Of a stretch of 64,000 nucleotides of DNA, positions 3,088 to 26,856 are shown piece by piece (position 1 is the first letter of the stretch; each line of letters begins with the position of its first letter). Under the pieces are notes generated by a model. The model searched no databases. It saw only the letters and a program-made list of their open reading frames with translations, and was not told the DNA's origin. A program made the position numbers and the translations under genes. Location: contig NZ_CP135052.1 in the NCBI RefSeq assembly GCF_029193595.2, positions 2,852,001 through 2,916,000 on the forward strand, written 5' to 3'. This DNA is from Providencia hangzhouensis. Its GTDB lineage: Bacteria > Pseudomonadota > Gammaproteobacteria > Enterobacterales > Enterobacteriaceae.

Positions 3088-4575
3088 TTATAATTCTTCA
3101 TGATTCGCCTTATCTGTAGAATTGACTTCTCTTAACAAATACCAGCAGAAATATATTAATACTAATATTCCAACAAATAACAATACCCATAAGGTAATCG
3201 TCAACCAGTTAAAACTACCGTCAACCACTTCCGTTATAGTTAGCCTATCTACACCACCCAACTCAATGATTGTATTATCAAGAAATAGCTGAGGATAATT
3301 TGTCATTAACTCATCAACGCTATCTGGTTTCCCTACAAGCTGGCTTGTGGTCAATTCATCAAAACTAGCTTGTTTATTCCCCCAAACAAGTAAATACGGA
3401 GCGGGACCTTGCAAATTAAAAATAAGGTTATAAGCATCTCGTTTTCCCGTTAGCCTTGGTGGCTGATCTTCCCAACTCCCTTTGAGGGCTGAAATTCTTA
3501 CTTTCCCCACCATTTCACCATAGAGCGCTGTGCTCGGATTGCTAATTAAATCACCATCTATTGTTTGATTATATGCAACAATGTTAGTGAGTAATTTCCA
3601 GCTTTCACCTCTATCAGATGAATACTCTATTTTTAGTGGGATCACACGGTTTGATTGTTGCAATTGTATTTGTAATTCACTCAGTGGCTGTGCTCTTGGT
3701 AATTGATAGATTATATGATCTTTTGAAACACCATCATTCGTCATCTCAAAATGAAATAGTTCTTGACGATAAGTTGAATTAAGCACGCTAGAGGTCGTAT
3801 TGACCTTTAATAAGTCAGGTATAACAATATCTGGACCACTTACTATTACAGCCATAAGATAAGGTGCATTCAATGCCTTTGAGTTGCCATTTAATAACTC
3901 AATATTATTGCTTGCAATAGTTTCTGAATTTAACTTCAAATTCATAATCGGCTGATTTGTTGCTATATTTAGCCAATTTTCTTTGTCGTCACTGGCAAAA
4001 ACAAATACCTTTGCCTGCCATTCTTTCTCGCTTTTAGCCCAGTCTAATACTAGGTTTTTAATTGGCGTATCTTTAGTTTGACTTTGATTTTTCGTTAATA
4101 AATAAGCCTGATAAGCCACGTTGTCTTTAACTTGCATACTAGGCAACTCAATTCTATTCACTTTGCCAGGGATAGATTCTACTAATAGATGTTGCTTTTC
4201 TCTACGCACATCATCATGGGAGTTAACGCTATCAACCTGAGTGACCAAACGCTGTGGTGTAAAAATGATCTTTTCATTTGAAACGGATTTTTCCGTATCC
4301 GAAAATAATACTGAAGGTATTTCATTACCAGTACCATTAAAGACTCGAACATCTTGCAACGTTTTGGGGTACGCTGAGTTCATATACGCATTTACGGGAA
4401 GCTCTAACCAGTAAAAAGGAGCCGATGAATCAAGAACATTTATTTCTGAGCCTTGATAAAAACTATAAGGAGTAACCTCTTCTACTGCCTCTGCATTCAA
4501 ATGACTTGAAAACAATAATGACAATGAGAAGACTGTAATGAGCCTTACTAGTCCTGTATTTTTAATTAAACTCAT
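3088..4575 (-). CDS. DUF3999 family membrane-anchored protein
   Basis: A 495-residue envelope protein of the DUF3999 family, which is usually encoded next to a DUF2339 protein, as here. It has a signal peptide at residues 1-28 (cleavage likely near SHLNAEA), a long periplasmic region with beta-rich segments, and a single C-terminal membrane segment at about 458-482 followed by a short cytoplasmic tail. A repeated discoidin-like pattern (VRVFNGTGNEIPS, LKIEYSSDRGESWKLL) suggests a carbohydrate- or ligand-binding beta-sandwich; that is inference. The ATG lies inside the end of the upstream gene (4-nt ATGA overlap), preceded by AAGGAGATA within that gene, so the two are translationally coupled. 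The pair's function is unknown. Confidence 0.85.
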   Translation of the reverse strand: MSLIKNTGLVRLITVFSLSLLFSSHLNAEAVEEVTPYSFYQGSEINVLDSSAPFYWLELPVNAYMNSAYPKTLQDVRVFNGTGNEIPSVLFSDTEKSVSNEKIIFTPQRLVTQVDSVNSHDDVRREKQHLLVESIPGKVNRIELPSMQVKDNVAYQAYLLTKNQSQTKDTPIKNLVLDWAKSEKEWQAKVFVFASDDKENWLNIATNQPIMNLKLNSETIASNNIELLNGNSKALNAPYLMAVIVSGPDIVIPDLLKVNTTSSVLNSTYRQELFHFEMTNDGVSKDHIIYQLPRAQPLSELQIQLQQSNRVIPLKIEYSSDRGESWKLLTNIVAYNQTIDGDLISNPSTALYGEMVGKVRISALKGSWEDQPPRLTGKRDAYNLIFNLQGPAPYLLVWGNKQASFDELTTSQLVGKPDSVDELMTNYPQLFLDNTIIELGGVDRLTITEVVDGSFNWLTITLWVLLFVGILVLIYFCWYLLREVNSTDKANHEEL

Positions 4576-24783: not shown

Positions 24784-25923
24784 TTATTTTTCTGCAAATA
24801 ACGGTTCAAAATTGCCATCAATATAATAGGAAACTTGATGTGCCTCATCTGGCGTTGGCAACTCCAACTTCCCTGCCATTTTTTCCATAACTTGCTCCGG
24901 CACTGCATACTTACGTTGTTGATTTTGTTGCCGCCACTGTTTAAATGGCACTTCCAAGTAAACTAAATGGATTTTGGCTTGATAACGTTCAAATAAGCTG
25001 ATCATGGTTCCCCGTAAAGAGGCACTTAATGATGTTGCATTCCAAATAAAATGTGTTTTAGTGCGTAACAATCGTTTTGCTTGCTCTTTAGCTTGCTGAG
25101 CTACCCACCCTTGTGCATTTTTATCTGCTGGGTTGATTTTATGTTCTCGGCGAATATCATCTAAACACACGACTGCCGTTTGTGGGTAAAACTGTTTGCT
25201 AAAATGGTCTTTTCCCATCCCCGGCAAACCACATAGCATAATCACTTCGCTCCCTATCTCTTCAAAAGGTTGGTAATCCGTAGTGCCTTTTTGATGATGA
25301 AAATAATGGAAGCGCCCAGCTGGTGAAGCGAATGATTTAGGTTTGTCCCAACAGCCCTGCTCACGACAAAATAATTCAAATAGCTCGATTCTAACTAATA
25401 ATTCCGCTTTATCTTCACATGTACGCCCTATCGCATCAGCTTTCGCTAACATGCACAATAAAGGCATTTCAACGCGCAATGATGCCGCAAATAATGTACG
25501 TTCAGGATCTGGCTTTTCCATTAACCAAAGCGGTAGACCATGAAATCGAACTAAAGCCGCAATCTGTTCACGAATAGCAAAAGGTGTTTCTATTTGTCGA
25601 AATAATATATTTCGTACAGATAATTCACCTTTTTTAGCATGTCCAGGCGAATGAATCCGCCCCTCTTCATCTTCTTTTGTCGTACTGCGTTTTTCAACAT
25701 CATGTAGCAACGCTGCCGCCCAAACGATTTGTTGTTTAAGTTCTGGAAGCTGTTGATATTCAGGTAAATCTTCCAAAGCCGCTAACACCATTTGAGTGTG
25801 AATGGCCACATTACCTTCCGCATGGTGCAAACGGTCTTGCAGCACATATTGCATATCACGCACAAAATCGAACTGTTTTTCAAGCTGCGCCCAATCACGA
25901 CATTGGGTTAATTGCCAACTCAT
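24784..25923 (-). CDS. HD-Pnk: HD phosphoesterase fused to polynucleotide 5'-kinase
   Basis: A 379-residue two-domain enzyme expected to heal broken RNA ends. The N-terminal HD domain (about residues 20-190) shows H42, the HD pair H74-D75 (AALLHDVEKRS), H91 and H95 (HSPGHAKKG) and H128 (RFHGLP), fitting a metal-dependent 2',3'-phosphoesterase. The C-terminal P-loop kinase (about 225-375) has GLPGMGKD at 232-239, LDDIRREH at 254-261, WNATSL at 294-299 and a lid-like RQQNQQRKY. The order is that of Runella HD-Pnk, a characterised end-healing enzyme. Its ATG overlaps the stop of the RNA ligase gene (ATGA), so ligase and healer are made together. Activity is inferred from motifs. Confidence 0.87.
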   Translation of the reverse strand: MSWQLTQCRDWAQLEKQFDFVRDMQYVLQDRLHHAEGNVAIHTQMVLAALEDLPEYQQLPELKQQIVWAAALLHDVEKRSTTKEDEEGRIHSPGHAKKGELSVRNILFRQIETPFAIREQIAALVRFHGLPLWLMEKPDPERTLFAASLRVEMPLLCMLAKADAIGRTCEDKAELLVRIELFELFCREQGCWDKPKSFASPAGRFHYFHHQKGTTDYQPFEEIGSEVIMLCGLPGMGKDHFSKQFYPQTAVVCLDDIRREHKINPADKNAQGWVAQQAKEQAKRLLRTKTHFIWNATSLSASLRGTMISLFERYQAKIHLVYLEVPFKQWRQQNQQRKYAVPEQVMEKMAGKLELPTPDEAHQVSYYIDGNFEPLFAEK

Positions 25924-26633
25924 GGTTGTTCTCCTTGTAATTCAAAGGCCAGCTTGGCTCTCTGCCAATGCCGTTTCCAGTGGATATCTGTTTTGACATG
26001 GTTTTTACGCACATATTTAAAAACATGCGCCATAAAATCATCCACATGAAACCCTTGGCTATCACGGCTCACAATCCCTTCCATGCTACAGGCTTTCCCT
26101 GTATGTGTATCACGCGCAATAAATTGACTATCTAATGATGCCGCAGTAATTAATGAACTTGCATACTCTTGCTTATCCATCTGTTTACTGAGTGATAAAT
26201 CTAATTGTGGGACAGTTGGAAAATCAAATAAAGCCGCATAAAATTGCACCTCTTCCCAACTAAGCCAATACTCCCCTTGCCTAACAGCAAACACATAGAA
26301 ATAATCTTCAATATGTTGATATTCAATGGAATGTATTGCATAAAGGTTTTCGCCGAAGAGTTCGATATCCTCTAAATCATCTTTAATCAGCTGCCAACGT
26401 TGGCGAATTTGCTGGCTCCATGCCGATTGGGTTGGGGCACCATGAGAGCGTGCAAAAACTCCATGGCGGTTTAAGCAATTATTTTCACCATCCAGTTTTT
26501 CTGTGTGAACCAGTTTGTTTATATTTTGGATGTGCGACCACCAATCGCTATTGATGCGATCATCACTAGTCGTACCAGGGGAGAACGGATAGTGATACGT
26601 TCTACCATACTTTCTTGATTGCATATTCATCAT
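25920..26633 (-). CDS. RNA ligase family protein
   Basis: A 237-residue nucleotidyltransferase of the ATP-dependent RNA ligase family. Ligase motifs are in order: motif I T-E-K46-L-D-G-E-N (K46 is the lysine to be adenylylated), motif IIIa ELFGENLYAIHSI (91-103), motif III YFYVFAV (111-117), motif IV SMEGIV (183-188) and motif V VFKYVRK (204-210, K206/K210). It has no large C-terminal domain, so it is a minimal ligase. It precedes the HD-Pnk gene with a 4-nt overlap; together they could convert 2',3'-cyclic phosphate and 5'-OH ends into ligatable ends and seal them. Three possible ATGs sit at the start (M1, M2, M4). No sigma-54 activator such as RtcR is adjacent. Confidence 0.88.
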   Translation of the reverse strand: MMNMQSRKYGRTYHYPFSPGTTSDDRINSDWWSHIQNINKLVHTEKLDGENNCLNRHGVFARSHGAPTQSAWSQQIRQRWQLIKDDLEDIELFGENLYAIHSIEYQHIEDYFYVFAVRQGEYWLSWEEVQFYAALFDFPTVPQLDLSLSKQMDKQEYASSLITAASLDSQFIARDTHTGKACSMEGIVSRDSQGFHVDDFMAHVFKYVRKNHVKTDIHWKRHWQRAKLAFELQGEQP

Positions 26634-26856
26634 GCTTTCTCTAAAGAAATAGAAATAACCACAAATCTTTTGTTAGATTTGCGTCTTTAATTGTTGAGAA
26701 ATCAAGAGTAGGTATTACATATCTATTCCGAGTAATGGCCTCATTTTTGCTTGGCTAATAGTTAAAATTAGCGAAATTGAAGGAAAACAGTTGAATTTTA
26801 GTCTAATTGTCAAGAAAAAGGCTATCAATTTATTCCTAATCTCATTACTAACGCAA

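Follow-up and report, generated by a model that had tools for sequence, protein, structure and literature searches.

The stretch analysed here, 64,000 nucleotides (nt) of Providencia hangzhouensis DNA whose positions serve as coordinates throughout (the window), carries on its minus strand two overlapping genes, encoding a small RNA ligase and a fused HD phosphoesterase-polynucleotide kinase (HD-Pnk), preceded by a conserved leader. The ligase (237 amino acids, aa; 25920-26633) belongs to the RNA_ligase family PF09414 (93.6 bits against a cut-off of 27). HD-Pnk (379 aa; 24784-25923), assigned from Pfam, alignments and a profile search, joins an N-terminal HD domain (PF01966; residues 40-135, 25519-25806; 25.8 bits against a cut-off of 22) to a C-terminal P-loop kinase domain (AAA_33, PF13671; residues 227-356, 24856-25245; 80.4 bits against a cut-off of 27). 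By their coordinates the two open reading frames (ORFs) share 4 nt, ATGA (25920-25923), and translational coupling of the two products is likely. The original prediction had placed a ligase and an HD/P-loop kinase of just these lengths and with this overlap at these positions; the ORF list and Pfam agree with it and add the strand.

The ligase carries the nucleotidyltransferase motifs of PF09414, namely K46-x-D-G (K46 being encoded at 26496-26498), E95, EG at 185-186 and K206, and the motif alignment confirmed the earlier reading of K46 as part of this set, with K46, D48, G49, E95, E185, G186 and K206 invariant in all 39 aligned ligases. Likewise, H34, H42, H74, D75, H95, H128 and D163 in the HD half and K238, D255, R258, R304 and R337 in the kinase half were invariant in all 31 aligned HD-Pnks, giving an N-terminal HD domain with its metal ligands and a C-terminal P-loop kinase. 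The end of the Walker A motif reads GK-D in the window protein and GK-S or GK-N in distant relatives. An AlphaFold2 model of the ligase reached a mean pLDDT (predicted local distance difference test) of 91.8 and a pTM (predicted template modelling score) of 0.90, and the ligase profile matched no chain among the solved structures at E 0.1. The profile of the kinase half matched 4gp7 (a chain named metallophosphoesterase; E 9e-17), L-seryl-tRNA(Sec) kinase, T4 polynucleotide kinase (1ltq), Pnkp1 and a bifunctional polynucleotide phosphatase/kinase, while residues 64-187 of HD-Pnk matched chains named poly A polymerase.

Distribution and descent of the gene pair

The genome to which the window belongs holds a single copy of the ligase, which shares 99% identity with its Providencia rettgeri YPR31 counterpart. 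Among 198 genomes sampled from the family, 19 ligase matches were obtained at E 0.001, one of which (G014, E 6e-4) was dropped, and HD-Pnk adjoins the ligase in all 18 that were counted. In E. coli, 981 of 5426 complete genomes match the ligase pair, and in 980 the match spans 80% or more of the two genes together; all copies are chromosomal, and in each of the four regions inspected the pair lies between emrB and luxS. With one genome per species scanned, the best 80 of at least 566 relatives (loci labelled L###) span Enterobacterales, Bacteroidota (55-63% identity) and one Limnohabitans bin, and HD-Pnk follows the ligase within ~800 bp in 78 of these 80, the others being L109 and L135 (contig end close by); L126 and L137 have a fragmentary or split copy. 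The ratio of nonsynonymous to synonymous substitution rates (dN/dS) of the ligase was 0.035-0.088 in five Providencia comparisons, at a dS of 1.4-2.4 that is near saturation; for HD-Pnk, dS was saturated and gave no ratio. Because the two genes occur together in all of the counted family genomes and in nearly all of the best loci, and because the ligase dN/dS is low, the pair is not a chance arrangement of ORFs.

Ligase and HD-Pnk divergence are correlated (r=0.88 over 81 pairs, uncorrected for the species tree). The neighbours of the pair differ among Providencia, Xenorhabdus, Proteus, Budviciaceae, the emrB group of Enterobacteriaceae and Serratia. A quick tree united the window and the 32 Enterobacterales rows in one clade (SH-aLRT, the Shimodaira-Hasegawa-like approximate likelihood ratio test, 95), and since this clade sits inside Bacteroidota, a single transfer into Enterobacterales is suggested, though a quick tree of the nearest loci is not proof. 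Upstream of the window ligase lies a gene for a VanW-like protein (PF04294; 26857-27711, minus strand), a relative of which adjoins the ligase in four of seven Providencia loci. A second group of HD-Pnks (L035, L038, L041, L042, L043 and L045) adjoins a different ligase-like protein of 278-308 aa, in which KYPRTPHL..EEK[LI]DGAN was recognized by eye and which was not found with the window ligase at E 1e-3; in L046, two different ligase-like genes flank HD-Pnk.

The stretch around the ligase was also examined in the best 80 of 437 viral ligase relatives, of which nine carry a full HD-Pnk (L140 and L161, and L142 and L143, look like near-identical copies). Some of the contigs with the pair measure 274-597 kb, and four of the nine (L142, L143, L144 and L148) have 12-14 tRNA genes in the stretch, a combination that fits counter-measures to tRNA cleavage. 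Among the ORFs between phage ligase and HD-Pnk, a short HNH-like gene was seen in L148 (Pfam match) and in L139, L140 and L142 (by sequence likeness), and in L139 (Pfam match) and L142 a BtpA-like gene also lies there.

RNA-repair genes that accompany the pair

Elsewhere in the window's genome, rtcR, an SPFH/Band 7 gene, rtcB and rlaP occur at one site and rtcB2-prfH at another. The original prediction had remarked on the lack of an RtcR/RtcB context, which is right for the immediate neighbourhood, neither being found among the window neighbours scanned, but does not extend to the rest of the genome, nor to those relatives in which the pair stands behind RtcB or RtcB-PrfH. In the family sample, RtcB is present in 17 of the 18 ligase genomes versus 19 of the 180 others (Fisher 9e-14) and PrfH, at its curated cut-off, in 14 of 18 versus 10 of 180 (Fisher 5e-12); in a hand-made list of 124 genomes of ~3 Mb or more, the values were 4e-10 for RtcB and 4e-9 for PrfH. 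A second sample comprised 194 Bacteroidota genomes of the order around Runella zeae, in which 34 of 42 ligase matches were used (E<=1e-30) and eight dropped. Here PrfH was found in 11 of 34 ligase genomes versus 4 of 160 others (9e-7), RtcB in 32 of 34 versus 73 of 160 (4e-8) and the KptA family in 28 of 34 versus 41 of 160 (9e-10).

Neighbours in the best 80 loci were counted as BLAST clusters of simple longest-ORF calls, with family scans on representatives only (RtcB-like, TIGR03073/PF01139; PrfH-like, TIGR03072; KptA-like, PF01885; the RtcB of L109 scores under the TIGR03073 cut-off). Within five genes upstream on the same strand, an RtcB-like gene was found in 14 loci and a PrfH-like gene in seven; a KptA-like gene lies within four genes in seven, directly upstream in four (in two of them on the opposite strand) and downstream once. 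Four Serratia loci have the order RtcB2-PrfH-ligase-HD-Pnk, PrfH and the ligase ORF standing 15-85 bases apart; the order recurs in L096 and, minus HD-Pnk, in L109, while in L095, L099 and L106 RtcB alone immediately precedes the ligase. A survey of this kind had been proposed with the original prediction, and it places HD-Pnk beside the ligase almost throughout and RtcB, PrfH and KptA near some copies of the pair. These neighbourhoods may well be covered already by the 2016 RNA repair review of Burroughs and Aravind.

Several further features of these neighbourhoods were observed. The rtcB2-prfH genes have an apparent leader of their own, in which, by eye, a very strong Shine-Dalgarno (SD) sequence (AAGGAGG) stands ahead of a short ORF and the SD stretch may form a hairpin with a CTTTGC further on; it is alike in four Serratia loci (L085, L086, L088 and L090) and in this Providencia (L254, ~4270-4370). 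Upstream of RtcB in the Bacteroidota loci L095, L099, L106 and L126, a common possible helix closing around an inner hairpin was likewise seen by eye, for example GGACTAA...TTAGTCC in L099 and L106, two loci without an Rfam match to it. A 196-aa gene between PrfH and KptA (L126:6218-6808) had no Pfam or NCBIfam match at E 0.001, and what looks by eye like its relative directly follows HD-Pnk in L097. In L133 (10561-11650) the KptA-like gene adjoins a NADAR protein, and the one in L105 a protein whose DarG match is weak and under the cut-off, which may indicate NAD/ADP-ribose chemistry near the pair.

A start-stop element in the leader of the ligase gene

Upstream of the Providencia ligase, alignments of seven and of six sequences define a conserved non-coding block, the 5' leader of the pair (26631-26750, minus strand). 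Its core, ATGTAATACCTACTCTTGA (26702-26720), contains an AUG directly followed by UAA (26720-26715), occurs once in the window with 2 mismatches allowed and is common to Xenorhabdus; the 9-mer ATGTAATAC of this core lies upstream of the ligase in Providencia, Xenorhabdus, Proteus and two Spirosoma loci. Among the best 80 loci, ATGTAA[TC] is present within 150 nt before the ligase in 44, against an expectation of 2.66 (standard deviation 1.62, maximum 8; 300 exact dinucleotide shuffles) and 18 of 728 upstreams of other genes at the same loci, and CATGTAAT in 21 of 80 ligase upstreams versus none of the 728 others. The match lies 77-115 nt before the ligase in 41 of the 44; in the remaining three the distances are 127, 130 and 45, the last in L064, where the start codon, chosen by script as in all loci, falls too far upstream, and which was excluded from the pairing test described below.

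The AUG-UAA element is common but far from universal, since 36 of the best 80 loci have no match to the pattern. In L061 the element is present but displaced by an insertion, and L122, L124, L128 and L135 have GTGTAAT instead. Of the others, four are Serratia, five emrB-group and four Budviciaceae loci; the remaining 18 are Bacteroidota, nine of which have an RtcB-like gene upstream while the other nine lack that gene as well as the element (L092, L098, L101, L105, L113, L114, L116, L117 and L121). In 33 further Bacteroidota loci, partly non-independent of the first set (the L256 leader equals that of L116), [AG]TGTAA[TC] was found in 11 (the copy in L276 lying elsewhere), a count with no shuffle control of its own, and L275, L276 and L277 have ATGTAG at the corresponding site. 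The variants thus keep a start (AUG, GUG) and a stop (UAA, UAG), although the search patterns favoured such variants. In phage leaders the motif occurs in 4 of 79, for which no enrichment can be claimed.

A TAnnTTTG box stands 30-47 nt before the motif in 14 of the 23 non-Enterobacterales leaders that have at least 45 nt before it. TAnnTTTG is the -7 promoter element of Bacteroidota, and the AUG-UAA element should therefore be transcribed in those leaders. Three other explanations of the element were rejected. A short conserved peptide is contradicted, by eye, by L062, which lacks an ATG at the upstream start, and by L070, in which the frame is changed, the AUG-UAA being kept in both; a genome-wide regulon site is contradicted by the single occurrence in the window's genome of a 25-base pattern with up to 3 mismatches; and in loci where RtcB comes before the ligase the element was not seen ahead of RtcB, [AG]TGTAA[TC] being absent from all nine RtcB upstreams that could be read (260 nt; of 14 loci). 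At the gathering score, Rfam had no match in the window between 23300 and 28000, nor in L066, L102, L111, L118 and L128, and in L085, L099, L106, L129 and L254 it matched just one sok and two tRNAs, all outside the leaders. As far as searches of Rfam and the open literature go, the leader is new.

In the RNAalifold alignment, a UUUCUC just downstream of the core (26696-26701) appears as a possible anti-SD strand facing GAGAAA (26636-26641), the likely SD region of the ligase. Between them lies a small hairpin, GCAAAUCU..AGAUUUGU (26661-26682), with two-sided changes at three pairs among six Providencia; it also matched a scan for terminator-like hairpins, though at a rate near chance (2 found versus 1.7 expected). 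A MAFFT alignment of 22 diverse leaders looked too heterogeneous, and for this reason pairing across relatives was assessed by duplex energies between the 28 nt from the AUG and the last 40 nt through the ligase start codon. In 60 leaders, z, calculated from exact dinucleotide shuffles of the partner, averaged -2.03 and was < -1.5 in 34 and > 0 in nine. A leader's own 40 nt gave -11.5 kcal/mol versus -7.0 for the 40 nt of other groups (Wilcoxon 1.3e-8 over leaders and 3.7e-4 over 23 groups, which we assigned from record titles or the look of the sequence). The pairing is retained across groups despite sequence change.

It is strongest in Proteus, in Dysgonomonas and its relatives, in Spirosoma and in Chitinophaga; in Chitinophaga and the L127/L132/L263 group the partner sequence is found ~20-40 nt ahead of the start codon, not at the start. 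Support is slight in Runella and another group, and pairing is unsupported in Saprospiraceae, Longitalea/Niastella, L094, L258, L265 and one further group. In Providencia it is not significant (z -0.46 to 0.06 for five leaders against shuffles), and in the single-sequence fold the SD region has a local partner and not UUUCUC. Because a conserved element is combined with pairing to the region before the ligase start, we read the leader as a probable translational control of the pair in many relatives, perhaps in Providencia also, with AUG-UAA as a putative mini-ORF at which ribosomes would pause.

Interpretation and comparison with known systems

The closest studied system is the Deinococcus radiodurans operon DRB0098-DRB0099-DRB0100 (ddrP), which holds the same two enzymes, and the pair described here is a new member of this already known kind. 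Compared with the R1 plasmid proteins at the DRB places, the window ligase is 30.5% identical (E 1e-25) and the HD-kinase 29% (E 4e-33); the plasmid genes, encoding in order an RNA ligase family protein, a TIGR02452 family protein and an AAA family ATPase, were equated with DRB0100-DRB0099-DRB0098 because gene order and products agree, not by locus-tag look-up. R1 has a macro/poly(ADP-ribose) glycohydrolase (PARG) gene between the two enzymes, for which the 4-nt overlap of the window genes leaves no space. In the accessible portions of PMC1997131, PMC1978522 and PMC11833690, DRB0099 is termed a PARG, and such PARGs hydrolyse ADP-ribose from RNA. Deinococcus sp. QL22 has two genes only, like the window; the three-gene order is that of the R1 plasmid. 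The same Deinococcus plasmid encodes a second ligase, DRO_RS15575, which we take to be DraRnl, annotated RNA ligase (ATP) and 342 aa long versus 237. The window ligase groups with DRB0100/DdrP (E 1e-25) and not with the DraRnl type, to which the pairwise match was E 1.2 over 29 residues and the profile match marginal (E 5e-4).

We consider it probable, at roughly 0.72, that the pair is a two-gene cassette that heals and seals the ends of ribotoxin-cut RNA beside the RtcB systems and is leader-controlled in many relatives. The HD domain would remove a 2',3'-cyclic or 3' phosphate, the kinase domain would add a phosphate to the 5'-OH, and 3'-OH/5'-P RNA ends would then be sealed by the ATP-dependent ligase of the DRB0100/DdrP clade. 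The substrate would be RNA cut by ribotoxins or anticodon nucleases, and the pair would act alongside RtcB and RtcB2-PrfH, not as their replacement. Translation of the operon may be governed by the leader with the conserved AUG-UAA in many relatives, perhaps here as well. The heal-and-seal anatomy seen by the original prediction is in line with the domains, the motif residues and the RNA-repair company in relatives, and its description of the system as little studied agrees with the literature found; the leader it did not mention.

Several points weigh against a cassette of this kind. In the Streptomyces, Vibrio and Sinorhizobium-phage homologues viewed, no HD-Pnk was annotated or matched nearby, and only nine of the best 80 viral loci have it complete in the examined stretch. 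Any tRNA was found in only 23 of these viral loci, within 2 kb of the ligase in 11, and large phages commonly carry sets of tRNA genes (PMC7824862, accessible portion). The co-occurrence statistics ignore shared ancestry, and by the same neighbour count no RtcB lies within five upstream genes in 66 of the best 80 cellular loci. Moreover, the accessible text of PMC1997131 reports that DRB0098 is an active 5'-kinase whose HD phosphatase activity was indistinguishable from contamination, and that DRB0100 is adenylylated with ATP (an ATP adenylyltransferase activity) but in vitro joined no DNA and no RNA, which leaves the completeness of the system, claimed by the original prediction, unproven; in that of PMC1978522, disruption of DRB0100 had no effect on radiation resistance.

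Patchy presence (981 of 5426 E. coli and 18 strong matches among 198 family genomes) and the occurrence of the same pair on some viral contigs would also suit a dedicated anti-phage or abortive-infection recovery module, restoring tRNA after the cell's own anticodon nuclease has fired. We regard this as improbable: PADLOC-DB 2.0.0 gave no match at E 0.1 for either protein, which speaks against a PADLOC-listed defence system and does not bear out the defence module of the original prediction, and the annotation of the four E. coli emrB-luxS regions viewed includes no anticodon nuclease, though no profile search for such nucleases was made in any genome. DNA end repair, the role originally suggested for the radiation-induced Deinococcus operon, in which the pair would heal and seal nicks in DNA, is decidedly improbable. 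According to the available parts of PMC1997131 and PMC1978522, DRB0098 phosphorylates 5'-OH ends and, together with LigA, allows DNA nicks to be healed and ligated, but the failure of DRB0100 to ligate DNA and the unchanged radiation resistance after its loss speak against this, as do the recurrent genomic partners of the pair, which are RNA repair or translation genes. Housekeeping RNA processing or editing, such as the circularising or maturing of one host RNA with toxin damage irrelevant, is highly improbable: a low ligase dN/dS in Providencia and the lack of an annotated toxin gene in the four E. coli regions viewed (not searched beyond) speak for it, and a patchiness in E. coli and in the family that is unusual for housekeeping speaks against it, as does the RtcB2-PrfH association.

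The leader of the pair could be a previously undescribed sensor of translation damage, an AUG-UAA mini-ORF on or beside the strand that can pair with the region just ahead of the ligase start, present in two phyla and moved with the genes; we put this forward tentatively and think it rather unlikely in full. A ribosome would be held at the start-stop when termination or the decoding centre is impaired, the held ribosome would mask the pairing strand, and translation of the RNA-repair enzymes would be released; the same element, used in two phyla, would have been transferred together with the genes.

Beyond Deinococcus, the pair resembles several described systems. In Runella zeae, HD-Pnk and ligase are 51% and 58% identical to the window proteins, on which ground they are probable orthologues, and KptA lies directly upstream of the pair, unlike in the window; the HD-Pnk of Runella slithyformis reportedly heals 2',3'-cyclic phosphate and 5'-OH ends. 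The RtcB2-PrfH operon, directly upstream of the pair in the four Serratia loci and co-occurring with it genome-wide, is also an RNA repair system; its ligase is of another family (PF01139 versus PF09414), and in the accessible portion of PMC9223846 RtcB joins 2',3'-cyclic-P and 5'-OH ends with GTP/Mn and the operon is linked to colicin E3. Bacterial Pnkp1-Rnl-Hen1 likewise heals and seals RNA after ribotoxin cleavage, as a three-protein complex according to the available text of PMC4411300, whereas the window has two proteins and an HD domain. For the leader, the nearest likeness is the AUGUAA of the Arabidopsis NIP5;1 5' untranslated region, where ribosomes stall and regulate the gene in a plant boron response (PMC11915504, accessible portion); no homology to the window leader is claimed.

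The enzymes, judged by sequence, are of a known kind, and the leader is what appears new. What triggers ATP-dependent heal-and-seal repair in bacteria, and on which RNA it acts, has been a question for this clade since the ligation failure of DRB0100 in 2007. Since 981 of 5426 complete E. coli genomes carry the pair, which is statistically associated with RtcB and PrfH and in many relatives stands behind a conserved leader that may hint at the damage sensed, this question becomes testable in a laboratory host, and the DRB0100 puzzle turns into questions of which damage is sensed and mended.

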